64,000 nucleotides of DNA, from NCBI RefSeq assembly GCF_010894455.1, contig NZ_JAAIXY010000015.1, forward strand, positions 1 through 64,000, read 5' to 3'. Of the stretch, positions 1 to 52,840 are shown in pieces. This DNA is from Myxococcus eversor. Its GTDB lineage: Bacteria; Myxococcota; Myxococcia; Myxococcales; Myxococcaceae. Positions within the stretch are counted from its first letter, which is position 1. Each line of letters opens with the position of its first letter. The notes beneath the pieces were generated by a model. It worked only from the letters and a program-made list of their open reading frames with translations. It was not told where the DNA came from and searched no databases. The position numbers were made by a program, and so were the translations under genes.

Positions 1-3000
1 GGCGACGATGAGCTCGACGGAGCGGTCGACGGCGATGGCGACGCGGGAGTCGGTGGTGGCGCCGAGGGAGCGCAGGTGCCAGGCGAGCTGATTGGAGCGC
101 TCGTCGAGCTGGCGGTAGGTGAGGGAGTCGTCACCGAAGAGGATGGCGACGGAGTCAGGAGCGCGAGCGACGACGTCGGCGAAGACGGCGGGAAGGGTGG
201 AGTCGGGCGAGACGAGCGCGGGAGCGATGGCCCAGTCCGTGAGGACGCTTTGCCGCTCCTCGGCGGACAGCATGGAGTGGGACGTGAGCGTGGCATCGGG
301 CCGAGTGACGACGGCTTCGACGAGCAGCTCGAAGTGCCGCGCCATGCGCTCGATGGAGGCACGCTCGAACAGGTCCGTGTTGTACGTCAGCGCGCCGAAG
401 AGTCCGTCCGCTCCCCCGTCCGCGAAGTTCAGCTCCAGCTCGAACTTGATGACGGTGCCTTCCACCTCCACCGGGCTGAGTGACAGCTCCTGCTTCTGGG
501 GAGCCGAATCGGGTGCGGTCTGGAGGGCCGAGCCGGGGGTGTTCTGGAGCGCGAAGAGGACCTGGAACAGCGGGCTGCGGCTCATGTCCCGGCGAATCTG
601 GAGGTCTTCAACCAACCGCTCGAACGGGACGTCCTGGTGCGCATAGGCGCCCAGGGCGTTCTCCTTCACCTGTCGCAGGAGCTGCAGGAACGTCGCGCCC
701 GTGTCGATGCGCGCCCGGAAGACGAGCGTGTTGACGAAGAAGCCGATGAGCCCTTCCAGCTCCGCGCGCTGGCGGCCGGCGATGGGCGAGCCGACGGCGA
801 TGTCGTCCTGTCCGGTGTGGCGGGACAGGAGCAACTGCCACGCGGCGAGCAGCGCCATGAAGGGCGTGGTTCCCTCGCGCTGGCACAGCGTCTTGAGCCG
901 CTTGGACACCTCCGGCCTCAAGTTGATGGGCACCTGGGCGCCAGCGAAGGTCTGCGTCGCGGGCCGAGGTTTGTCGAGCGGCAGGTCCAGCGTGGCGACT
1001 CCGGACAGTCGGCCGCGCCACCAGGCGAGCTGCTGCTCCAGCACGTCGCCCTTCAGCCAGTCGCGCTGCCAGACGGCGTAGTCGGCGTACTGGAGGGACA
1101 GGGGCGGAAGCGGCGACGGTGCCCCCATCGCGAAGGCCGCGTAGAGGGTGGCGACCTCCTGGGTGAGCACCCCCATGGACCAACCGTCGGAGACGATGTG
1201 GTGCATGTTGAGCGCGAGCACGTGCTCGGTGGGGGACGTCTCCACCAGAACGGCGCGAACGAGCGGGCCGGTGGAGAGGTTGAACGGGCGCATGTACTCC
1301 TCGCCCAGCAGTCGCTCCACCTCCGCGCGAGTCGCCTCCGGCGTCTGTCCCTGGACCTTCACCAGCGTCACCGGCACCTCCGCGTGCGGGGCGATGACCT
1401 GGAAGGGCTCGTCGTTCTGCTGGAGGAACGTGGTGCGCAGGGCCTCGTGGCGGCGCACCAGCTCGTCGAAGGCCCGCTGGAGCGCGGACAGGTGGAGCTC
1501 CCCGTCCAGCCGGACGAAGGAGGGCATGTTGTACGTCGCCCCGCCGGGCTGGAGCTGGTCGAGGAACCAGAGGCGCTGCTGCGCGAAGGACAGCGGCAGC
1601 GGTCCCGTGCGAGGCACCGGAACCAGCGCGGGCGGCTGCCGGTTCCGCGACGTCATCAACGTGGTGTCGATGCTCGCCGCCAGGGCCGCCACCGTGGGCG
1701 AAGCGAAGACGGTGCGCAGCGGCAGCTCCACGCCGAGCGCGGACCTCACGCGCGACACGACCTGGGTGGCGAGCAGCGAATGCCCCCCGAGCGCGAAGAA
1801 GTTGTCGGTGACGCTCACGCGCGGCACGTGCAGGACGTCGGCGAAGAGCGCGGCGAGCTTCTCCTCCAGCGGAGTGCGGGGCGCGGCGAAGGCGGCGGCG
1901 CCACGCAGGCTCTGTGCGTCAGGCGCGGGAAGGCGCTTGCGCGCGAGCTTGCCGCTGGGCGTGAGGGGCAGCGCGGGCAGCGCCACGAACGCGGACGGCA
2001 CCATGTACTCGGGCAGGCGCTGGAGCACGAAGGCGCGCAGGGCCTCGGCGTCGAGCGTGGCGTCGGGTGAGAGGACGACGTAGCCCACCAGGCGTTTGTC
2101 GCCCGGCACATCCTCGCGAACGATGGCGGCGGCGTCACTCAGCCCCGGGGCGGAGCGGAGCACGGACTCGACTTCACCCAGCTCCACCCGGAAACCGCGC
2201 AGCTTCACCTGGGAGTCCATCCGTCCCAGGAAGTCGAGCGTGCCGTCCGCGCGCCACCGCGCCGCGTCCCCGGTGCGATAGAGCCGCGCGCCCGGCACCG
2301 TCGAGAACGGGTCCGGAACGAACGCCTTCGCGGTGACGTCCGGCTGCGACAGGTAGCCGTGCGCCAGGTGGGTGCCGCCGATGAACAGCTCTCCCGAGAC
2401 GCCGATGGGCACGGGATGGCCGAGCGCATCCAGGACATAGAGCCGCGTGTGGCCCACCGGCCCGCCGATGGACGGCAGCCGGGGCCAGGATGCGGGAGCC
2501 CCCTGGAGTCGGTGGGCGGAGACGACGTGCGCCTCGGAAGGGCCGTACTGGTTCTCCAGGACGCTGCCCGAGAGCTTCTCGAAGAACGCGGCGACCGTGT
2601 CGCTCACCTGGAGCTGCTCACCCGCGGTGATGACCTCGCGCAGGGAGCCGGGCAGCGTGGCGCCGTGGGAGACGGCGTCGGCGATGGCCTGGAGCGCGAC
2701 GAAGGGCAGGAAGAGCCGCGCGACGCGCTGCTGCTGCATGAAGTCGAGCAGCGCCGGAATGTCCTGGCGCAGTCCCCCGGTGGGGAGCACGAGCGTGCCT
2801 CCGGCCCACCAGGTGGAGAAGAGCTCCTGGACGGAGACGTCGAAGCTGAGCGATGCGAACTGCAGCGTGGTGGCACGCGGCTGGGGCGAGCGCTGGAGCT
2901 GCCAGGTGAGCAGCGCGCTCAGCGCGCGGTGGGGCATGACGATGCCCTTGGGCACCCCCGTGCTCCCGGACGTGTAGATGACGTAGGCGGGGCTCTCCGC

Positions 3001-5727
3001 CGACACTTCGAGACCTGGCGCGCGCGGGGACAGGCCGGCCACGTGGGCCGCGTCGACGTCCACCAGGAGGAAGCGCGCCCCGTGCTCGGAGGGCAGTGAC
3101 GCCGCGAGCTGGGAGTGGGTGAGGACCACGGGCGCGCGCGTGTCCGCGAGCATGAACGCCAGGCGCTCCGTGGGGTAGCTGGGGTCGAGCGCGACGTAGC
3201 TGGCTCCCGCCTTGAGCGTGGCGAGGACGGCGACGGCCATGTCGAGCGACTTGTCCAGGCAGATGCCGACGATGCACCCCGGTGTCACCCCGCGCGCGAG
3301 CAAGTGGTGCGCGAGCTGATTGGCCCGCGCCTCCAGCGCCGCGTACGTGAGGGCGTGGGTGCCATCGGTGACAGCCACGGCGTCGGGCGTGCGGAGCGCC
3401 TGGGCCTCCACGGGCGCGTGAAGCGTGGTGGGACCGAAGGGCTCGCGGGACGTGTCGTTCCAGTCGACGAGGACCTGGCGACGCTCGGGCTCCTCCAGCA
3501 TCGGCAGGCGCCAGACGGGCTGGCTCGGGTCGCTGACGGCGGACTGCAGCAGCCGCACGAACTGGTCCGCCATCCGTTGGACTGTCGCGGTGTCGAAGAG
3601 GTCGGTGTTGTACTCGAACACCGCGTTGAACGCGGTGCCGTCATCGGACGCCAGCAGCGTGAGGTCGAACTTGGCGGTGCCGCTGATGGCGTCCAGCGGG
3701 CGGACCTTGAGCGGCGCGTCGGGGTCTTCGGCCCCCACGGACTTCGGCGTGTTGAGCAGGGCCAGCATCACCTGGAACAGGGGCGTGCGACTCTGGTCTC
3801 GCTCGGGGCGCAGCTCGTCCACCAGCTTCTCGAAGGGGACGTCCTGGTGCGCATAGGCCCCCAGCGTCGTCTCGCGCACCTGGGACAGCAGCTCGCGGAA
3901 CGTCATCCCCGGATGGAACCGGGCCCGCAGCGCCAGCGTGTTGGCGAAGAAGCCGATGAGCCCTTCCAGGTCCGACCGCATCCGGTTGGCGATGGGCGAG
4001 CCGACGATGATGTCGTCCTGCCCGGAGTAGCGCGCGAGCAGCGTCTGGTAGCCGGCCAGCAGCACCATGAAGGGCGTGACGCCCTCCTGGCGGCACAGCT
4101 CGTAGACGCGGGTGGCGAGCGAGGCGGGAAGCTCCACGCGCAGCATGTCCCCGCGCTGCGACTGGATGGGAGGCCGGGGCCTGTCGGTGGGCAGCTCCAG
4201 CGCATGCGGCGCGTCGGCGAGCTGGGTCCTCCAGTACGCGAGCTGTGACTCCAGCACGTCGCCCGTCAGCCAGCCGCGCTGCCAGACGGCGAAGTCCGCG
4301 TACTGCACGGGCAGCTCGGGGAGCGGCGAGGGCCGGCCCATCGCGAAGGACTGATAGAGGGCGGGGACCTCCTGCGTGATGACGCCGATGGACCAGCCGT
4401 CGGAGATGACGTGGTGGATGACGATGAGCAGCACGTGCTCGTGCTCGTCGAGCTTCAGGAGCCGCGCGCGCAAGAGCGGCCCCGTGGCCAGGTCGAACGG
4501 CGTGCGCGCCTCCGCGTCGGCGATTCGCTGCGCCTCCGCGTCGCGGGCCTCCGCGGGCACGGCGCGCAGGTCCTCGACGGGAATGGTGAAGGGCGCGGGC
4601 GGGGAGATGGCCTGGACGGGGCCGTCCTGCAGCGAGCGGAAGCGGGTGCGCAGCGTCTGGTGGCGCCGCGCCAGCTCCGTGAAGGCGCGCTCCAGGAGCG
4701 AGTGTTCCAGTGGGCCGGTGAAGCGCAGGCCGTAGAACATGTTGTACGCGGGACTGCCGGGCTGGAGCTGGTCCAGGAACCAGAGCCGCTGCTGTGCGTA
4801 CGACAGCGGAGCACCGTCGCCATGCCCCGTGAGGATGGGGCCGGTGAGGGACTGCGCGGACTCGAAGAGTCGCGTCGCCAGCTCCTTCGCGTGCGGCTCG
4901 CGCAACAGCGAATACCCGTCTCCGGGCACGTCCTCGACCTGGGCGCCTGCTTCCGCGAGCACCGCCCAGCCCTTGTCCTTCTCCACGTCGGCGGCGTCGA
5001 TGACCTCGGCGGCGCGGACGATGCGCGCGGTGCCGGGAAACGCCTCGGGGACGTAGCGACGCGCGGCGCGCACGTGCGCGGAGAAGACCTTGAAGCGCGC
5101 GCGCAGCACCTCCAGCGTCATGGACTCGGGCAGCAGGCCCTGGCGCGTGCCCTCCGCGTGCAGGTGCAGCAGGAGGGGCTCGGGGTCCTTGCCCGTGGTG
5201 AGCGCGGCGGGCAGCTCCAGCGGGGACAGGCCCGCCCGCAGCGCCAGCTCCTTCGCGAAGAGCGCGGCGTGCGCGGCCAGGGCCGTGGCGGAGACGCTCC
5301 GGTCGGGCGACGGGGGCGGCGGCTCGAGCAGCGTGAGCTTCGCGACATGGCCATCGCGCTGGAGCAGGCGCGCCATCTCCCACGCGATGACCGCGCCCAG
5401 TGCCCAGCCCGCCAGGTGATACGGCCCCTCGGAGCGCTCGGCGCGGAGGGCCTCGACGTAGAAGACGGCCATCGCCTCCAGCGACTCCATGGGCGCGCGC
5501 CCGTCGTCCACGCCGCGCGCCTGGATTCCGAACACGGGCTGGGACGCGGGCGTCTGGCGGAGCAGCTCCGCGTAGCAGTCCAGGCGGCCATCCACCGGAT
5601 GGACCAGGTAGAGCGGGCTCGTCGTGTCGTTCCCCTTGCGCAGGGGCAAGAGCGGCGAGGCGGACAGGCTCGCCTCGGATGGGGTGACGGGGCCGACGGA
5701 CGTCGGGGAGTCGTTGCGCGTGCTCAC
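1..5727 (-). CDS. Non-ribosomal peptide synthetase, 5' part: degenerate TE-C-A-PCP-C-A(partial)
   Basis: Large multimodular NRPS running off the left edge; 1909 residues are visible. Order by residue: a thioesterase-like alpha/beta hydrolase (about 37-285), condensation domain with HHVISDG (about 436), adenylation domain with YTSGSTGVPKG (about 914), carrier domain with GGHSL (about 1314), second condensation domain with HHIVSDG (about 1507), and the start of a second adenylation domain. The adenylation pocket reads D-V-Q-F-I-A-Q-V-V at the usual specificity positions, close to proline-type codes (my alignment by eye). In the N-terminal domain the nucleophile elbow is GWALG instead of GWSxG, the acid position is Glu in LLEP, and the histidine position is Gly in GDGYSLL, so it looks catalytically dead. 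The GTG start is preceded by GGAG and lies 46 bp downstream of the exporter gene, implying one operon. The product is unknown. Confidence 0.93.
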   Translation of the reverse strand, partial: MSTRNDSPTSVGPVTPSEASLSASPLLPLRKGNDTTSPLYLVHPVDGRLDCYAELLRQTPASQPVFGIQARGVDDGRAPMESLEAMAVFYVEALRAERSEGPYHLAGWALGAVIAWEMARLLQRDGHVAKLTLLEPPPPSPDRSVSATALAAHAALFAKELALRAGLSPLELPAALTTGKDPEPLLLHLHAEGTRQGLLPESMTLEVLRARFKVFSAHVRAARRYVPEAFPGTARIVRAAEVIDAADVEKDKGWAVLAEAGAQVEDVPGDGYSLLREPHAKELATRLFESAQSLTGPILTGHGDGAPLSYAQQRLWFLDQLQPGSPAYNMFYGLRFTGPLEHSLLERAFTELARRHQTLRTRFRSLQDGPVQAISPPAPFTIPVEDLRAVPAEARDAEAQRIADAEARTPFDLATGPLLRARLLKLDEHEHVLLIVIHHVISDGWSIGVITQEVPALYQSFAMGRPSPLPELPVQYADFAVWQRGWLTGDVLESQLAYWRTQLADAPHALELPTDRPRPPIQSQRGDMLRVELPASLATRVYELCRQEGVTPFMVLLAGYQTLLARYSGQDDIIVGSPIANRMRSDLEGLIGFFANTLALRARFHPGMTFRELLSQVRETTLGAYAHQDVPFEKLVDELRPERDQSRTPLFQVMLALLNTPKSVGAEDPDAPLKVRPLDAISGTAKFDLTLLASDDGTAFNAVFEYNTDLFDTATVQRMADQFVRLLQSAVSDPSQPVWRLPMLEEPERRQVLVDWNDTSREPFGPTTLHAPVEAQALRTPDAVAVTDGTHALTYAALEARANQLAHHLLARGVTPGCIVGICLDKSLDMAVAVLATLKAGASYVALDPSYPTERLAFMLADTRAPVVLTHSQLAASLPSEHGARFLLVDVDAAHVAGLSPRAPGLEVSAESPAYVIYTSGSTGVPKGIVMPHRALSALLTWQLQRSPQPRATTLQFASLSFDVSVQELFSTWWAGGTLVLPTGGLRQDIPALLDFMQQQRVARLFLPFVALQAIADAVSHGATLPGSLREVITAGEQLQVSDTVAAFFEKLSGSVLENQYGPSEAHVVSAHRLQGAPASWPRLPSIGGPVGHTRLYVLDALGHPVPIGVSGELFIGGTHLAHGYLSQPDVTAKAFVPDPFSTVPGARLYRTGDAARWRADGTLDFLGRMDSQVKLRGFRVELGEVESVLRSAPGLSDAAAIVREDVPGDKRLVGYVVLSPDATLDAEALRAFVLQRLPEYMVPSAFVALPALPLTPSGKLARKRLPAPDAQSLRGAAAFAAPRTPLEEKLAALFADVLHVPRVSVTDNFFALGGHSLLATQVVSRVRSALGVELPLRTVFASPTVAALAASIDTTLMTSRNRQPPALVPVPRTGPLPLSFAQQRLWFLDQLQPGGATYNMPSFVRLDGELHLSALQRAFDELVRRHEALRTTFLQQNDEPFQVIAPHAEVPVTLVKVQGQTPEATRAEVERLLGEEYMRPFNLSTGPLVRAVLVETSPTEHVLALNMHHIVSDGWSMGVLTQEVATLYAAFAMGAPSPLPPLSLQYADYAVWQRDWLKGDVLEQQLAWWRGRLSGVATLDLPLDKPRPATQTFAGAQVPINLRPEVSKRLKTLCQREGTTPFMALLAAWQLLLSRHTGQDDIAVGSPIAGRQRAELEGLIGFFVNTLVFRARIDTGATFLQLLRQVKENALGAYAHQDVPFERLVEDLQIRRDMSRSPLFQVLFALQNTPGSALQTAPDSAPQKQELSLSPVEVEGTVIKFELELNFADGGADGLFGALTYNTDLFERASIERMARHFELLVEAVVTRPDATLTSHSMLSAEERQSVLTDWAIAPALVSPDSTLPAVFADVVARAPDSVAILFGDDSLTYRQLDERSNQLAWHLRSLGATTDSRVAIAVDRSVELIVA

Positions 5728-5773: not shown

Positions 5774-7201
5774 TCAGGACGGAGAGTTTCCCGTCGCCGA
5801 GAGCGGACTCTCGGACACGGCGCCTGCCGGTGGCGGTTCAGAGGAAAGAGGAATGGCGAGCGGATGGGAGGGAATCACGTCCGGATGTTCTTCCTGGACG
5901 CGCCGCGCGCGAGGAGACAGCAGAAGCAGGCCGACGGCGCACAGCACCGTGAGCCCCAGGACGACGAAAAGAAAGGCGATGCCACGCCCGGTGCCCGTGC
6001 CCAGCACGCGGCCCACGCTGCCGGCGAATGCGCCGCCTGGCGCCATCCACGGCTCGAAGACCCGGTCCGCCAGCGGACCCGCCATCAGCGTGACGAGCAG
6101 CACCGCGGACTGCCCCACCGTCTTGCGCAGCGCGGACACCCGGCCCTGGATTTCCAGCGGCACCTTGAGCTGCCACAAGACTTGCGAGTTGGCCGTGGTG
6201 AGCGGCATGGAGAACAGGAACAGCGCCGCCGCCGTGGCGAGCAACGGCACGCTGGGCGGCAGCGCGGCCAACAGCAGCATGAGCGAGGCCACGGCCGGGA
6301 AGCCCGCGATGCCGAGGATGCGGTGCTTGGGGCCGCCCCACACGCTGGTGAGGATGCCGCCGGCCAGCATGCCCATGCCGGAGATGGAGCCGATGAGGCC
6401 CAGGTTCTTCAAGTCCGTGAAGGCCAGCACCAGCGGCGTGAAGAGCAGGAGCACCAGCGCGAGGCTCGCGTTGGTGAACGTGGTGAAGGCCAGGATGTAC
6501 GACAGGCCCCGCCGCTCCCGGAGGAAGCGCCACCCCTCCGCCAGCTCCCGGCTCATGGAGCGCGGCCCCGTGCTCCGCGCGGAAGCCCCCGGCGTCGGCG
6601 GGAAGCGCACGGCCACCAGCACGCCCGCGGCGAACAGGAAGCTGAGCACGTCCAGGAAGAGCACACCGTGCAGGCCAATGCTCCCCACCAGCACGCCAGC
6701 GAAGACGGGCGACGCAATCTGACTCAGCGCCGCGCCCAGCTCCGCCATGCCGCTGGCCCGCCCCAGGTGCCGCTTGGGGATGAGCAGCGGCGTCGTGGCC
6801 GTCCACGCGGGCCAGCGGAACGCCGTGCAACAGCCGCCCAACAGGACGATGGGGTACAGGTACCAGGCCTTGAACTCCAGCCGCCCCGTGTCGTCCGCCA
6901 CCAGCAGCAGCCAGATGAGCGCGGTGGTGACGCCGGAGCCCACGTCGCTCCACAACATCGCCTTCCTGCGGTCCCACCGGTCCACCAGCACCCCGGCGAA
7001 CGGGGACAGCACCGCCAACGGCAGCGTGGCGCAGAAGGAGATGAGCACGAAGCGCGTGGTGGAGCCGGTGAGCTGGTAGACGTGCGCGCCCAACGCGAAC
7101 GACGTCAGCCCCGAACCGAACAGGGAGATGAACTGCCCCAGCCACACGAGGCCGAAGGTGAAAAGCGGGCGCGACGGCGAAGCAGGCGACGGGGCGGTCA
7201 T
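5774..7201 (-). CDS. MFS exporter (MFS_3/EntS-like)
   Basis: A 475-residue membrane protein with about twelve hydrophobic segments and a typical MFS loop near residues 63-70 (VDRWDRRK). The layout resembles the MFS_3 group that includes enterobactin exporters and macrolide efflux pumps. It is immediately upstream of the NRPS gene on the same strand, so its probable role is export of, or self-protection against, the NRPS product; that is inference from context. The start at MTAPSP was chosen because the first membrane segment begins about 12 residues later. Longer in-frame starts would add a proline-rich stretch with no membrane segment. No strong ribosome site is visible at this ATG. Confidence 0.88.
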   Translation of the reverse strand: MTAPSPASPSRPLFTFGLVWLGQFISLFGSGLTSFALGAHVYQLTGSTTRFVLISFCATLPLAVLSPFAGVLVDRWDRRKAMLWSDVGSGVTTALIWLLLVADDTGRLEFKAWYLYPIVLLGGCCTAFRWPAWTATTPLLIPKRHLGRASGMAELGAALSQIASPVFAGVLVGSIGLHGVLFLDVLSFLFAAGVLVAVRFPPTPGASARSTGPRSMSRELAEGWRFLRERRGLSYILAFTTFTNASLALVLLLFTPLVLAFTDLKNLGLIGSISGMGMLAGGILTSVWGGPKHRILGIAGFPAVASLMLLLAALPPSVPLLATAAALFLFSMPLTTANSQVLWQLKVPLEIQGRVSALRKTVGQSAVLLVTLMAGPLADRVFEPWMAPGGAFAGSVGRVLGTGTGRGIAFLFVVLGLTVLCAVGLLLLSPRARRVQEEHPDVIPSHPLAIPLSSEPPPAGAVSESPLSATGNSPS

Positions 7202-7469
7202 TCGGCGTGACGATGCGAGCTGGGTTGGCTGGCGAGCTTCCCACTGGCCAGGGGCACGGCACAGGAACTGGGGCACTCCTGGATCAGCTTCACAGCCCTG
7301 ACGCATTCTTGCAAACAGACTACCCGGACAGTCGCGCTGATACCTGCTGAAACACGGACGGAGGGTGTGGCCCAGGGGAGGTGGCGGGGGAGGGGGCCCT
7401 CGTTGCGAGCGGGCGGGCACGCCGCACCTTCTTGCTCAGCAACCCGTTCACCACTTCCAGGAGGCCTTC

Positions 7470-46774: not shown

Positions 46775-49700
46775 TCAGCCCTCCGGCGCTGTCAGCGGCA
46801 ACTCGGCGGTGAAGGTGGCGCCGCCGCCCTCCGTGGGCGTCAGGTGGATGCCTCCCTCGTGGCCCTCGGCGATGTGGAGCGCCATCCACAGGCCCAGTCC
46901 GAAGCCTCCGTGATTGCGCGTGGAGACGGCGCGCTCGAAGCGGCCGAAGATTCGCTCGCCGTCTTCGGAGGCGACGCCGGGGCCATGGTCCACCACGGCG
47001 ATGCGGACGCTGTCCCCGGAGGCGGCCACGCTGACCTCGATGGGCCTGCCCGCGCCGAACTTGATGGCGTTGTCGACCAGGCTCTCCACGAGCTGACGAA
47101 GCCGCTCCGGGTCGAACCGGCCCACCACGGCGGGTGGGGTGGTCCACGTGAGGGAGGACTCCGCGCGCGCGGCCTTCTCCCGTGCCCCTTCGATGACGTC
47201 CTTCACGACGGCCGTCACATCCACGTCCTGGCGCACCAGCGCCAGGCGGCCGGTGACGAACTCGGACACGTCCAGCAGGTGCTCCACCAGCCGCGTCAGT
47301 CGCTGGAGCTGCTTCTGCGTCGTCTGCGCCCGGCTCCGCACCAGCTCCTCTGGAGAGAGCCGGGTGTCCTCGCGGTCCAGGTTGCGCAACAGGTTCTGGA
47401 TGTTGAGCGTCAGCACGCTCACCGGGGTGCGCAGCTCGTGGCTGACCAGGCTGAGGAACTCGTCACGCAGGTGCACGGAGTCCAGCAGCGCCTCCTTCTC
47501 CAGCTCCTTGCGCGTCACCGCCCGCCGCACGCTGACCATCTCCAGCTGCGTGCGCACCCGGGCCATCAGCTCCCGCGCGGAGAAGGGCTTGACCAGGTAG
47601 TCGTCGGCTCCGCTCGACAGGCCCTCCACCGTGGACTCGTCGCCCGCGCGCGCGGAGAGCAGGATGATGGGGATGGCCCGCGTGCGCGGGTCCGCGCGCA
47701 GCTCGCGCACGAGGCCGAAGCCGTCCAGCACCGGCATCATCACGTCGGAGAGGATGAGGTCGGGCGGCTGGCGGCGCGCCCGCTCCAGGGCCTCACGGCC
47801 GTTCATCGCCGTCTCGACGTGGGTGAAGCGGCGGCCCAGCAACCCCGAGACGTAGCTGCGCAGGTCGGCGTTGTCGTCGACGAGGAGGATGCGCGAGGAC
47901 GTCAGCGACTCGGGAATGTCCAACTGCGCGTCGTCCGCGCGCTCCACCGCCACGGGCTGGAGCAGGGGCGCGTCCGAAGCCGACCACCGCTGCGCCTCCT
48001 GGACGAAGGGCGCGGCCCAGGCCGCCGACGAGCGCGAGCGGGGCTTGTGGTCGATTCGCTCCTCGGGCAGGTGGGCCGAGCCGCCCGGCAACCGCACCGT
48101 GAAGGTGGTGCCCTCGCCCAGCCGGCTCGTCACGGAGACGGTGCCCCCGTGCAGCTTGACGAGCTCCTCCACCATGGCGAGGCCAATGCCCGTCCCTTCG
48201 TGACTCCGGCCCTGGGTGGCGCGCACGCGGTAGAACCGCTCGAAGACGCGCGGGAGGTCCTCCTCGGGAATCCCCACGCCGGTGTCCCGCACCGTGAGGA
48301 CCGCGCCCCCGTCCCTCCAGTGCTGGCCCACATGAATCTCGCCCTGGTAGGTGTACTTCACCGCGTTGGAGAGCAGGTTGAGGACAACCTTCTCCCACAT
48401 CTCCGGGTCCACGTAGACGGCCTCGGGTAGCGGGGGGCAGTCCACCCGCAGCCGCAGCCCGGCGCTGCCCACCGCGGACTCGAAGGTGCTCGCCAGGTTG
48501 CGCGTGAAGGTCGCCAGGTCCGTGGGGACGTAGGTGGCCTGCGTCCGTCCGGCCTCCATGCGCGAGAAGTCGAGCAGCGTGTTGACCATCTTGTAGAGCC
48601 GCTGCGCGCTGCGGCGCACCAGGTCCAACTGCTCTCCCTCCAGGACCCTGGGCTCCCGGTTCATGGCGTCTTCGATGGGCCCGAGAATCAGCGTGAGCGG
48701 CGTGCGGAACTCGTGGCTCACGTTGCTGAAGAAGGCCGTCTTGGCCTGGTCGAGCTGGGCGAGCTGCTCGGCGCGCTGCCGCTCCTGCTCGTAGGCGCGG
48801 GCGCTGGCGAAGCTGGCGGCGAGCTGCCGCGCGAGCAACTGCAGGAAGCTCCGGTACTCGTCATCCAGCGCGCGCAGCGGACTGATGCCGGCGACGAACA
48901 CGCCCATCAGCTCCGCGTCCGCGCCCATGGGCACCGGAAGCAGCAGCGCGCGAGTCGTGGGCTCGGGCCAGGGGCCACCGGGGAGGGGACCGAACCTCGT
49001 CGCGAGGTCGTCGACCAGCACCTCCTGTCCCTCGTGGACGACGCTGGCGAGCGGCCACGCGCTCGTCTCATCCAGGTGCAGCTCGGTGGGCGCCGAGGCC
49101 GAGCCTCGGGGCAGGTTGGCGCAGGTGACGAGTTGCGCCTGTTCGCCCCGGACGACGTAGAGCAGGCCGAAGGGCAAATCGTGTCCGGCGGGTGTGAGGA
49201 CCTCTTCCAATGCGACGAAGAGCGCCTCGACCTTGGCGCTGAGCGCCGCCCGGATGGACAGCTCCCGGAGGATGGCCAGGCGCCTGTCTCCGACGACCTG
49301 CCGCGTCGTCTCGCTCGCGATGGCGAAGAGGCCGGCGATCTCCCCCGACTCGCCAATGGTGGGGTTGTAGGACCAGGTGAAGTAGGCCTCTTCCCGAAGG
49401 CCCCCGGGCCGCCGCGCGAAGTTGACGTTGCCGTTCTCGATGAAGAGCGGCTCTCCCGTCGCGTGCACGCGCTGCATCAAGGGGCCCAGCAGCTTCCACT
49501 CCTCCGCCAGCGCCTCGGAGCCGCGCGCGCCCAGCGTCAGCGGATGCTTGGTCCCGAGGATGGGCCGGAAGGGGTCGTTGTAGAGCATGTTCAGCTCCGG
49601 ACCCCAGAACAGGATGATGGGGTACGGAGAGCGCAGCATCGTGCTGACCGAGGTCCGTAGCGATTGGGGCCAGCGCTCCATCGGCCCCAGCGCAGTGGTC

Positions 49701-52700
49701 CGCCAGTCGAAGGCGCGCATCAGGGCGCCCATCTCGCCACCGCTCTGGATGAAGTGCTCTTGTGAGGCGTCGCGCGCGAGCACCGGGCGCGGAACCACCG
49801 AGCGCTCTCCGGAGGGAGGCTCGGTGGGGAGCCAGAAGGAGAACGTGCTGCCGGTGTCGGAGGTGGCCTCCAGGAGGAGCTGCCCGCCGTGGCTCTCCAC
49901 GATGCCCTTGGTGATGGAGAGCCCCAGTCCATGGCTGTCGCGCCGCTTCTGGGCCGCGTGCCAGTGGCGGTCGAAGAGGTGCCGCTGCGCCTCGGGCGAA
50001 AGGCCCGGGCCGCTGTCTGTCACGCTGAAGCGGATGCCAGGCGTCCCAGGCGTGTGTCCGGCCCTCAGGTGGATGCGGCCTCCCGGCCCGGGCGGAGTGA
50101 ACTTGATGGCATTGGAGACGAGGTTGCCGAACGCCTGGAGGAAGCGCTCCCTGTCACATCGCAGGACGAGCCCGGGCGTCACGTCGCTGTCGAGCGTCAG
50201 GCCCTTCTCCGCCGCCTGGGGCTCGAACTGCTCCTGGGCCTCGCGCACCAGGTCTTCCACGCGTTGCGGCCGCGCGTCGACGGAGAGCGTCCCGGTGTCG
50301 ATGCTCGCCAGGTCGAGCAGGTCGTCGATGAGCCGGTTCATCCGGGTGGCGGCGCGGTGAATCGACTCCGCCTGCTTGTGCACGCGCGTGCCCGTGTCGC
50401 CCTCCCGGGGGAGTCGCTGCAGCAGCTCGGCGGCGGTGCGGATGGTGGTGAGGGGCGAGCGCAAGTCATGGCTGACCACCGCGAGCGTCTCTTCTCGCGA
50501 GCGGGTGGCGCGCTGGGCCTCCTCGAGCAGGCGTCGGGCCTCCTCCGCGTGGATGCGCTCGGCGAGGAGCGCCTCCTGCCGGAGCTGGGACACGGTGAGC
50601 AGGGCGTTGACGCGGGCCCGGAGCTCGTTGGCGGAGAAGGGCTTGACCAGGTACTCGTCCGCGCCGCTGCGCAGCCCCTCGATGGTGGCCTCTTCTCCGG
50701 CCCGCGCGGACAGCAGCAGGATGGGGATGAAGCGGGTGCGCTCGTCGGCGCGCAGGGCCCGCACCAGCTCCAGGCCGCCCACGCCCGGCATCATCACGTC
50801 GGAGAGGATGAGGTCGGGAGGGTTCTCCCGCGCGGAGGCGAGCGCCTGGGCGCCATGGCTCGCCATCTCCACGCGCCAGTGGGGTGACAGCAGGCGCAGC
50901 AGGTAGCCGCGCATGTCGACGTTGTCGTCCGCCACGAGGATGCGCGCCTCGGAGTGGGAGAGGGGAGGACCCGCGCTGGGGAGCCCCGGCTCGTTCCACT
51001 GGGAGACCTCGGCGAGGAACTCGCGGGCGCCAATCCCGGTGGAGGCCAGCGTCCGGGCCGCTCCGACCTTCTCCGGGTCCAGGTGCGCGAAGCCCGTGGG
51101 GAGGCGCACCGTGAAGGTGGTGCCCCGCTGGACGGCGCTCGTCACCGTCACGGTGCCACCGTGCAGTTTGACGAGCTCCCGCACCAGCGACAGCCCGATG
51201 CCCGTGCCTTCGTGGCTGCGCCCCCGCGCGCCTTCGACGCGGTGGAAGCGGTCGAAGATGCGCGGCAGCTCCTCCTCCGGCATGCCGATGCCCGTGTCCT
51301 TCACCGTCAGCTCCACGCTGTCGTCCAGCCATGTCAGCGCGATGTGGACATGGCCCTCGAAGGTGAACTTCAGGGCGTTGGAGAGCAGGTTGAGGACAAC
51401 CTTCTCCCACATCTCCGGGTCCACATAGACGGAGTCGGGCAGCGGCGGGCAGGCGACGACCAGCTCCAGCCCCGCGGTGGTCATCGCCGAATCGAAGCTG
51501 CTGACCAGATCTCGAGTGAGGGCGGAGAGGTCCGTGGGGATGAACGAAGCCTGGACACGGCCCGCCTCCAGCCGGGCGAAGTCGAGCAGGGTGTTGACCA
51601 GCTTCTGCAGCCGCAACCCGTTGCGGCGCACCATCTCCTGGCGCTCCCGTTGCGGCGGAGGGAGGGGATGCTCGACATCCGTCAGGGAGTCCTCGACGGG
51701 GCCGAGCATCAAGGTGAGGGGCGTGCGGAACTCGTGGCTGACGTTGCTGAAGAAGGCGGTCTTCGAGCGGTCGAGCTCCGCGAGGGCCTCCGCCCGCCGC
51801 TTCTCCTCTTCGTAGGCGCGAGCGCTGCTGACGGCCGTGGCGAGGTGGTCCGCCACCAGCGCCAGGAACCCCCGGTAGTCCTCATCCAGGGCGCGCCGCG
51901 CGCTCACTCCCGCGACGAGGAAGCCATGAGGGCGCCTGGCCCCAGGGCGGGTGATGGGCAGCACCAGGACGGAGTGGGGAGAATCGGGCCAGGGGCCGCC
52001 CGGGAGCTCGCCGAAGCGGGTGTGCGCGTCGGAGATGAGGTGTCCTCCCCGGGCCTCCCACGCTTCGGAGAAGGACCAGGTGGCGCTGGCGGGAAGGTCG
52101 CCGAACCGCGAGGCGGCCTGGGCCTTTGTCTCCCAGCCCGTCGCCTCCATCAGGTCGGAGGACAGCTCGCCGCTGGGACCCAGGCGATGGAGCAGGGCGA
52201 AGGGAAGGTCGTAGGCATTGCCCGCCAGGGCTCGCGCGGCCTCACGCCAGGCGTCCTCCTCTCGCTTGACGGTCCCCGCGCGCGCCGCGAGGTCCCGGAG
52301 GGTTCGCAGCCGTCGTTCGCCGAGCACCCGGCCCGTGGTCTCCGTCAGGGTGACGAGGATTCCTCCGACGCCCCCGCTCTCGTCCCGGATGGGGCTGTAG
52401 GAGTACGTGAAGTAGCACTCCTCGAGGTAGCCGTTCCGGTCCAGCGGCAGCATCCAATCCACCGAGCCGACCGCCGCGCCCCGCCACACCCCGTCGAACA
52501 GCGGGCCGATGATGTGCCAGCTCTCGGCGAACGTCGTCTGGGCGCTGGTGCCCATGGCCGAGGGGTGCTTCGTGGAGCCGAGCACGGGCCTGTATCCGTC
52601 ATTGTAGAACTGGACGAGCTGTCGTCCCCACGCGATGTACATGGGGAAGTGGGATTCGAGCACGATGCTGACCGCCGTGCGCAGCGACTGCGGCCAGGTC

Positions 52701-52840
52701 TCCGGCGGGCCCACGGGCGTCTTCGACCAGTCGGTGGCGCGCATGAGCGCGCCCATCTCGCCGCCGCCGGCGAGCACCGCCGCGGCCACGGGATGAAGGT
52801 CGGAACGAGATGTCCCAGGACGTTGGGTCGAGTGGCTCAT
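46775..52840 (-). CDS. Giant hybrid histidine kinase with duplicated sensor-kinase-receiver-kinase layout
   Basis: A 2021-residue signalling protein. In order: PAS-like (30-175), GAF-like (190-350), HisKA with SHEFRTPL (His about 369), ATPase domain, receiver (about 633-750, phosphoacceptor Asp in LSDVMMP near 681), a second HisKA with SHDLRSPL (about 790) and ATPase. The same set then recurs: PAS-like (from about 1028), GAF, HisKA SHEFRTPL (about 1376), ATPase, receiver (about 1649-1760, Asp near 1699), HisKA SHELRTP (about 1797) and ATPase. All four His and both Asp sites look intact. No membrane segment is seen, so it is cytoplasmic. It may have arisen by internal duplication and could run an intramolecular phosphorelay. 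The start has no clear ribosome site. Confidence 0.93.
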   Translation of the reverse strand: MSHSTQRPGTSRSDLHPVAAAVLAGGGEMGALMRATDWSKTPVGPPETWPQSLRTAVSIVLESHFPMYIAWGRQLVQFYNDGYRPVLGSTKHPSAMGTSAQTTFAESWHIIGPLFDGVWRGAAVGSVDWMLPLDRNGYLEECYFTYSYSPIRDESGGVGGILVTLTETTGRVLGERRLRTLRDLAARAGTVKREEDAWREAARALAGNAYDLPFALLHRLGPSGELSSDLMEATGWETKAQAASRFGDLPASATWSFSEAWEARGGHLISDAHTRFGELPGGPWPDSPHSVLVLPITRPGARRPHGFLVAGVSARRALDEDYRGFLALVADHLATAVSSARAYEEEKRRAEALAELDRSKTAFFSNVSHEFRTPLTLMLGPVEDSLTDVEHPLPPPQRERQEMVRRNGLRLQKLVNTLLDFARLEAGRVQASFIPTDLSALTRDLVSSFDSAMTTAGLELVVACPPLPDSVYVDPEMWEKVVLNLLSNALKFTFEGHVHIALTWLDDSVELTVKDTGIGMPEEELPRIFDRFHRVEGARGRSHEGTGIGLSLVRELVKLHGGTVTVTSAVQRGTTFTVRLPTGFAHLDPEKVGAARTLASTGIGAREFLAEVSQWNEPGLPSAGPPLSHSEARILVADDNVDMRGYLLRLLSPHWRVEMASHGAQALASARENPPDLILSDVMMPGVGGLELVRALRADERTRFIPILLLSARAGEEATIEGLRSGADEYLVKPFSANELRARVNALLTVSQLRQEALLAERIHAEEARRLLEEAQRATRSREETLAVVSHDLRSPLTTIRTAAELLQRLPREGDTGTRVHKQAESIHRAATRMNRLIDDLLDLASIDTGTLSVDARPQRVEDLVREAQEQFEPQAAEKGLTLDSDVTPGLVLRCDRERFLQAFGNLVSNAIKFTPPGPGGRIHLRAGHTPGTPGIRFSVTDSGPGLSPEAQRHLFDRHWHAAQKRRDSHGLGLSITKGIVESHGGQLLLEATSDTGSTFSFWLPTEPPSGERSVVPRPVLARDASQEHFIQSGGEMGALMRAFDWRTTALGPMERWPQSLRTSVSTMLRSPYPIILFWGPELNMLYNDPFRPILGTKHPLTLGARGSEALAEEWKLLGPLMQRVHATGEPLFIENGNVNFARRPGGLREEAYFTWSYNPTIGESGEIAGLFAIASETTRQVVGDRRLAILRELSIRAALSAKVEALFVALEEVLTPAGHDLPFGLLYVVRGEQAQLVTCANLPRGSASAPTELHLDETSAWPLASVVHEGQEVLVDDLATRFGPLPGGPWPEPTTRALLLPVPMGADAELMGVFVAGISPLRALDDEYRSFLQLLARQLAASFASARAYEQERQRAEQLAQLDQAKTAFFSNVSHEFRTPLTLILGPIEDAMNREPRVLEGEQLDLVRRSAQRLYKMVNTLLDFSRMEAGRTQATYVPTDLATFTRNLASTFESAVGSAGLRLRVDCPPLPEAVYVDPEMWEKVVLNLLSNAVKYTYQGEIHVGQHWRDGGAVLTVRDTGVGIPEEDLPRVFERFYRVRATQGRSHEGTGIGLAMVEELVKLHGGTVSVTSRLGEGTTFTVRLPGGSAHLPEERIDHKPRSRSSAAWAAPFVQEAQRWSASDAPLLQPVAVERADDAQLDIPESLTSSRILLVDDNADLRSYVSGLLGRRFTHVETAMNGREALERARRQPPDLILSDVMMPVLDGFGLVRELRADPRTRAIPIILLSARAGDESTVEGLSSGADDYLVKPFSARELMARVRTQLEMVSVRRAVTRKELEKEALLDSVHLRDEFLSLVSHELRTPVSVLTLNIQNLLRNLDREDTRLSPEELVRSRAQTTQKQLQRLTRLVEHLLDVSEFVTGRLALVRQDVDVTAVVKDVIEGAREKAARAESSLTWTTPPAVVGRFDPERLRQLVESLVDNAIKFGAGRPIEVSVAASGDSVRIAVVDHGPGVASEDGERIFGRFERAVSTRNHGGFGLGLWMALHIAEGHEGGIHLTPTEGGGATFTAELPLTAPEG

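Follow-up and report, generated by a model that had tools for sequence, protein, structure and literature searches.

A thioesterase-like domain without the catalytic triad at the start of a Myxococcus eversor peptide synthetase, and its sister domain at the end of a second one

The first protein encoded at the edge of a 64,000-nucleotide stretch of Myxococcus eversor DNA (the window, analysed at its full length; RefSeq assembly GCF_010894455.1, contig NZ_JAAIXY010000015.1, positions 1 to 64,000; G000:C31:1-64000 in the handles used here) is a nonribosomal peptide synthetase (NRPS) that begins with a dead thioesterase (TE) domain. This domain, hereafter psiTE, has kept the TE fold and lost the catalytic triad, and a sister domain, also dead, is the last one of another giant NRPS that occurs in precisely the same set of genomes. 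The two proteins are very probably the halves of one assembly line, and we favour a role of their psiTEs as a docking or hand-off element. The window protein begins at its psiTE, but on the best reading the assembly line does not.

A thioesterase fold without the catalytic residues

The window contains the 5' part of the NRPS gene (1..5727, minus strand), which starts with GTG at 5727 and comprises 1909 codons before it is cut by the contig edge, the open reading frame running past the contig's first base. A domain search gives the order psiTE-C-A-T-C-A..., with C, A, and T standing for condensation, adenylation, and carrier domains. The psiTE (residues 38-285; 4873..5616, minus strand) matches the TE profile PF00975 with 79.6 bits (E 5.2e-22; profile positions 2-220 of 226). 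Its AlphaFold model (predicted local distance difference test score, pLDDT, 89; predicted template modelling score 0.89) finds its best structural match in the TE of 4zxh (Z 31.7, root-mean-square deviation 2.2, 260 residues aligned; Foldseek E 5.9e-21). In a phmmer alignment, Ala109 (GWALG; 5401..5403), Glu135 (LLEP; 5323..5325), and Gly271 (GDGYSLL; 4915..4917), all on the minus strand, fall on the GWCFG, the strand-end Asp, and the GDH of 4zxh, respectively. The structure 4zxh is that of the four-domain NRPS AB3403, whose TE has Cys at the nucleophile elbow (GWCFG). The psiTE is truly N-terminal, because just four codons (LEYL) separate the GTG from an upstream in-frame stop. A preliminary description had read a TE-like domain at the start of this NRPS from the letters alone, with Ala, Glu, and Gly in place of the triad, and had proposed a check by profile and structure prediction; profile and model now agree with that reading.

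Relatives of the psiTE were searched for in 27 genomes of the genus and 96 of the family. Eight further N-terminal copies (N-type) share 74-93% identity with that of the window (G011, G008, G018, G005, G004, G019, G007, and G016), and five internal copies share 60-65% (G015, G014, G010, and twice in G003). Ala, Glu, and Gly occupy the triad columns in 14/14 N-terminal or internal copies (nine N-terminal and five internal, from 13 genomes), so that a search for the same residue states, also proposed in the preliminary description, rules out a local sequence error. A DNA pattern for the Ala elbow hits 14 sites in 13 of 195 genomes of the phylum, and the reversed pattern used as a control hits none.

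The dead sister domain (C-type) is the last domain of a second giant NRPS and is 50-53% identical to the psiTE of the window; across all N-type and C-type copies, identity is 50-57%. The internal copies share 61-65% with the C-type psiTE of G000 and are thus about equidistant from both types. The AlphaFold model of the G000 C-type psiTE (G000:C50; pLDDT 91) also matches 4zxh best (Z 29.1). The triad columns of the C-type hold Gly (GPG.G), Glu (EP), and, in place of His, one of Ala, Ser, Val, Pro, or Gln. Among the 96 family genomes, the nine that encode an N-terminal copy also encode a C-type psiTE, and the remaining 87 do not; four other genomes have internal psiTEs only, and no genome has one of the split halves alone.

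In 23/23 psiTEs of all three kinds, the aligned columns contain neither Ser nor His, on which grounds an intact triad elsewhere in the domain was rejected. The nucleophile column is Ala or Gly in 23/23 psiTEs and Ser in 24/24 comparison TEs, all of which keep both Ser and His. Glu at the acid column (23/23 psiTEs) is by itself not diagnostic, because it also occurs in 5/24 comparison TEs. A His one residue later (GDGH in 5/9 N-type psiTEs) restores nothing, since the nucleophile is missing. About 20 residues, many of them in the lid and the long helix, are near-invariant across N-type, C-type, and internal psiTEs and rare in intact TEs; among the strongly conserved ones are K151, P155, H161, R182, K184, and H189 (model numbering). 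Two sequences of 17-20% identity (L001 and L002) are excluded from this residue count and included among the 24 comparison TEs.

Profile and structure place the psiTE in the TE fold family, but it fails the catalytic tests and is therefore not classed as a thioesterase. It shares with the type I TEs of NRPSs (PF00975; AB3403 4zxh, EntF, SrfA-C) the profile, the alpha/beta-hydrolase fold, and the T-TE linker, but lacks the Ser or Cys nucleophile and the His, and stands at the N-terminus or inside the protein rather than in the C-terminal place of TEs. Among intact TEs, those at protein C-termini in the same genus come closest (42-45% identity). A contig scan with two short peptide patterns returned 25 loci, seven of them in the psiTE family. 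In the 18 others, the protein ends at most 33 residues from the match, the elbow is Ser in 17 and Cys in one, and a simple His pattern is readable in 15. The scan found no psiTE beyond the family, which, with two short patterns only, does not prove absence elsewhere.

All psiTEs fall into a single group (100/100) in a tree built from 39 TEs, which indicates a shared origin; the N-type and the C-type each form a group of their own (100/100). Four internal psiTEs adjoin the N-type (99/96); the fifth, on contig C52 of G003, branches first, weakly (85/78). The N-type and C-type subtrees are mirrored, with a distance correlation of 0.90 that only 2/20000 label permutations reached. Pairwise ratios of nonsynonymous to synonymous substitutions (dN/dS; Nei-Gojobori) are 0.11-0.30 for the N-type (8 pairs), 0.17-0.37 for the C-type (7 pairs), and 0.16-0.26 for intact terminal TEs (4 pairs). 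By these ratios, the psiTE is under purifying selection. The suggestion in the preliminary description that a non-catalytic role is selected for is supported, as every member retains the fold without the triad, and dN/dS resembles that of intact terminal TEs.

Split and fused proteins

The C-type NRPS is unbroken in G018 (a frame of 14623 aa, across contig ends) and G019 (14599 aa), where it reads C-A-T-E-like-C-A-T..., E-like denoting an epimerization-like domain, with 13 carriers and a terminal T-psiTE. In G007 (C1:2361587-2384408) and G016 (C1:4542248-4557684), it lies in several frames, through assembly error or real damage. The N-type proteins of G007, G018, and G019 run from psiTE-C-A-T over a total of 9 or 10 carriers to an intact TE; the N-type frame of G016 is broken in two. 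An intact TE ends all four N-type genes whose end lies on the same contig (G007, G016, G018, and G019), and in the other five N-type genomes a TE of 76-77% identity is located elsewhere. In the same four genomes, which are near-closed assemblies, the C-type and N-type loci are 1.0-1.1 Mb apart.

The four genomes with only internal copies encode a fused protein with a single psiTE in its middle, in the order T-psiTE-C. In G015 (15973 aa) and G010 (15944 aa), it reads C-A-T-E-like-C..., with five carriers before the psiTE, nine behind it, and an intact TE at the end. Judging from an A-domain code, C-domain trees, and a shared exporter, each split protein matches one side of the fused protein. 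The code DLESIG..V[VL] marks the penultimate module before the psiTE in 9/9 C-type and 4/4 readable fused proteins and is absent from all other modules read (9 of 159 codes, plus 4 of 18 further codes). In a tree of 106 C domains (those shorter than 300 residues being excluded), the post-psiTE C domains of three N-type and all four fused proteins form one group (support 94), the C domains of the DLES module group in 6/6 cases (support 100), and the E-like domains and the C domains that follow them group in 4/4 cases each (support 100). The exporter of the major facilitator superfamily (MFS) encoded directly upstream of the window NRPS (5774..7420, minus strand) is 53-55% identical to the MFS protein whose gene immediately follows that of the fused NRPS in G010, G015, and G003.

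The ends of the split proteins point to the position of the cut. N-type proteins retain the T-TE linker SPLV.LR ahead of the psiTE, and the C-type stops about 12 residues past it; the pair resembles a single T-psiTE-C gene that was cut before the psiTE in one half and behind it in the other. The counterpart in the window, SPLLPLR (5638..5658, minus strand; compare WSPLVPLR in fused and WSPLVTLR in C-type proteins), suggests a cut of the N-type gene inside this linker. Upstream of it, the motif PTSVG (5692..5706, minus strand) is present in 9/9 N-type proteins, in an N-terminal stretch that is otherwise variable and rich in Ser and Pro.

The psiTE has outlasted changes in the modules behind it. 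G007, G016, and G019 have lost the first module (9 carriers vs 10 in G018), and their post-psiTE C domain groups with the second C domain of the other N-types, but the psiTE is retained. Between G018 and G019, the psiTE is 87% identical and the first C domain 51%. In the N-type NRPS of G008 (C150), C domains 4 and 7 as well as 3 and 6 are nearly identical, which suggests a recent duplication of a module block.

Genomic surroundings

Behind the psiTE, the window NRPS continues on the minus strand with a first C domain (3448..4809), whose HHVISDG motif is intact and which clusters with the post-psiTE C domain of fused proteins; a first A domain (1945..3408) with the code DVQFIAQVV, which would be proline-like by code tables; and a first T domain (1669..1866) and a second C domain (229..1596). 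Presumed readings of the same kind apply to other A codes, which show proline-, valine-, and glutamine-like repeats. The 3' part of the gene is likely located at G000:C45:148643-150799 (A-T-intact TE), given the 76% identity of the TE and the adjoining FMN_dh gene, an arrangement also found in G019, G011, and G008. Another candidate for the missing end, on G000:C35, was rejected because its last A domain motif differs.

The N-type locus consists of the MFS exporter and the NRPS; no further NRPS was found in its vicinity by local models in the flanks searched. The C-type locus (G018 and G019) comprises an NRPS with an inserted luciferase-like monooxygenase, polyketide synthase (PKS) genes, a glycosyltransferase, the giant NRPS, an MbtH protein, and a LuxR-type regulator. 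In G018 (L100:4-19877), the genes upstream of the C-type NRPS encode a luciferase-like monooxygenase inside an NRPS A domain, three PKS proteins, and the glycosyltransferase, which makes a glycosylated hybrid of polyketide and peptide the probable product. In the flanks searched, local models found no TE other than the psiTE near the C-type genes and no NRPS beyond the C-type itself and the upstream NRPS/PKS genes.

Upstream of the fused NRPS, at a distance of 25-46 bases, lies another NRPS gene that ends in an intact TE (G015:C1:1960002-1970195; G010:C1:6913001-6923071). Myxovalargin is unlikely to be made by the fused 14-module NRPS, as the myxovalargin assembly line is described as lacking a type I TE in the relevant part of PMC9853869. 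Elsewhere in the window, a 2021-residue hybrid sensor kinase (46775-52840, minus strand) combines four HisKA/HATPase units with two receivers.

A putative docking pair and its alternatives

In the arrangement that we propose, the C-type NRPS, which stands behind PKS modules and ends in ...A-T-psiTE, would pass the peptide on its last carrier to the opening C domain of the N-type, which starts with psiTE-C-A-T... and ends in an intact TE. Both psiTEs descend from one dead TE and most likely form a non-catalytic pair that joins the carrier to the C domain; the psiTEs might touch each other, or the N-terminal psiTE might have retained the affinity of a TE for the carrier domain. In the fused relatives, the same single domain lies between T and C. 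From these comparisons, we infer that the two proteins act one after the other and touch through their psiTEs. The preliminary description had offered docking, gating of the first C domain, and intermediate binding as possible roles. Of these, docking agrees best with the data, because the same nine genomes have a second NRPS that closes with a sister dead TE, and because a single dead TE connects the corresponding parts in the fused proteins; gating fits less well, because G007, G016, and G019 have lost the first module and kept the dead TE in front of another C domain. That a TE stands first holds for the protein but not, as argued from the split and fused forms, for the assembly line, and the implied start of synthesis at the window NRPS finds no support.

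Known docking elements of NRPSs, namely COM, PAX, and beta-hairpin domains, are all short according to the part of the review PMC9113145 considered here. In these systems, too, the end of one subunit and the start of the following one carry elements that match each other where T meets C; homologous psiTEs occupy these two ends in 9/9 genomes. By contrast, a psiTE is a whole dead enzyme domain of 250 residues on both sides, unlike the short helices or hairpins treated there. The word "thioesterase" does not occur in that review. By eye, only about 12 residues follow the psiTE at the C-terminus of the C-type, and the N-type opens with its Ser/Pro-rich stretch.

Tandem C-terminal TEs, as in the lysobactin and teixobactin synthetases, also place more than one TE in one line, but theirs share a single C-terminus and are catalytic. 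A passage in PMC12858407 mentions a TE at the N-terminus of other megasynthases as uncharacterised; the enzyme treated there likewise has an N-terminal TE but differs as a bimodular hybrid, and the passage does not give the residue states. The tri-TE of enduracidin, as far as the relevant part of PMC13320435 describes it, is one terminal TE with two type II TEs, unlike the psiTE pair. In the open-access literature searched, no paper was found to name a docking element derived from a dead TE or otherwise of thioesterase type, and the term "pseudothioesterase" has no match.

Several observations weigh against a docking pair that arose by splitting. The nine split genomes probably go back to one split event, so that co-occurrence and mirrored trees may reflect shared descent alone, and the order in which an internal form preceded the split depends on the weak branch (85/78). 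Correspondence before the psiTE is incomplete: the last C domain groups in 4/6 proteins only, those of G015 and G010 not matching, C-type and fused proteins begin with C domains that do not group in the tree, and 13 modules precede the psiTE in the C-type vs five in G015 and G010. In many pairs, dN/dS of the psiTE exceeds that of the neighbouring C, A, or T domains. Finally, PTSVG, conserved at the N-terminus of the N-type, could be the real docking element.

The last two points lead to the alternative that the psiTE is a scar, a mere folded leftover that caps or spaces the halves of one line, whose docking would rest on PTSVG or direct T-C contact. A domain that has already lost one function, is somewhat more variable than its neighbours in many pairs, and is preceded by a short conserved motif in 9/9 N-types would suit this explanation. 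We consider it unlikely, as both copies are retained in 9/9 genomes with dN/dS of 0.11-0.37, like intact TEs, psiTE-specific residues are invariant across N-type, C-type, and internal forms, and the psiTE has outlasted the module behind it. A role in cis, in which the pocket of the psiTE holds a long peptide or regulates the C domain, would be compatible with the intact fold and the strongly conserved lid and helix residues, but it leaves a copy on both sides of the split unexplained and accords poorly with a psiTE that persists although the C domain behind it has changed; we regard it as improbable.

More doubtful still is the notion that the two NRPSs belong to unrelated assembly lines with different products, the N-type psiTE taking a starter from elsewhere. 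The distance of 1.0-1.1 Mb between the loci in G007, G016, G018, and G019 and the difference between C-type and fused proteins in their first C domain could be taken in its favour, but the corresponding parts are joined in the fused relatives, no terminal TE was found for the C-type and no loading module in the N-type, and co-occurrence among the 96 genomes is perfect. Sequencing error or a decaying pseudogene can practically be dismissed: nothing was found in its support, the window NRPS being cut only by the contig edge, and 14 concordant copies in 13 genomes have long open frames and signs of purifying selection.

Taken further, the docking pair suggests a tentative scenario, somewhat short of an even chance, in which a dead TE trapped between T and C was duplicated when the gene split and became a matched docking pair that lets megasynthases encoded a megabase apart act as one line. 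If true, this would be a new route to an interface for docking, and nature would have supplied a recipe by which megasynthases can be split. The engineering of peptide antibiotics is limited by the way in which very large NRPS proteins recognise their partners, and if the psiTE pair docks, it would offer a large, foldable, and transplantable interface with the fused relatives as a built-in control. Two clusters that are usually annotated separately would then jointly make one long, lipopeptide-like molecule, and a cluster predicted from a single locus can be half a pathway.

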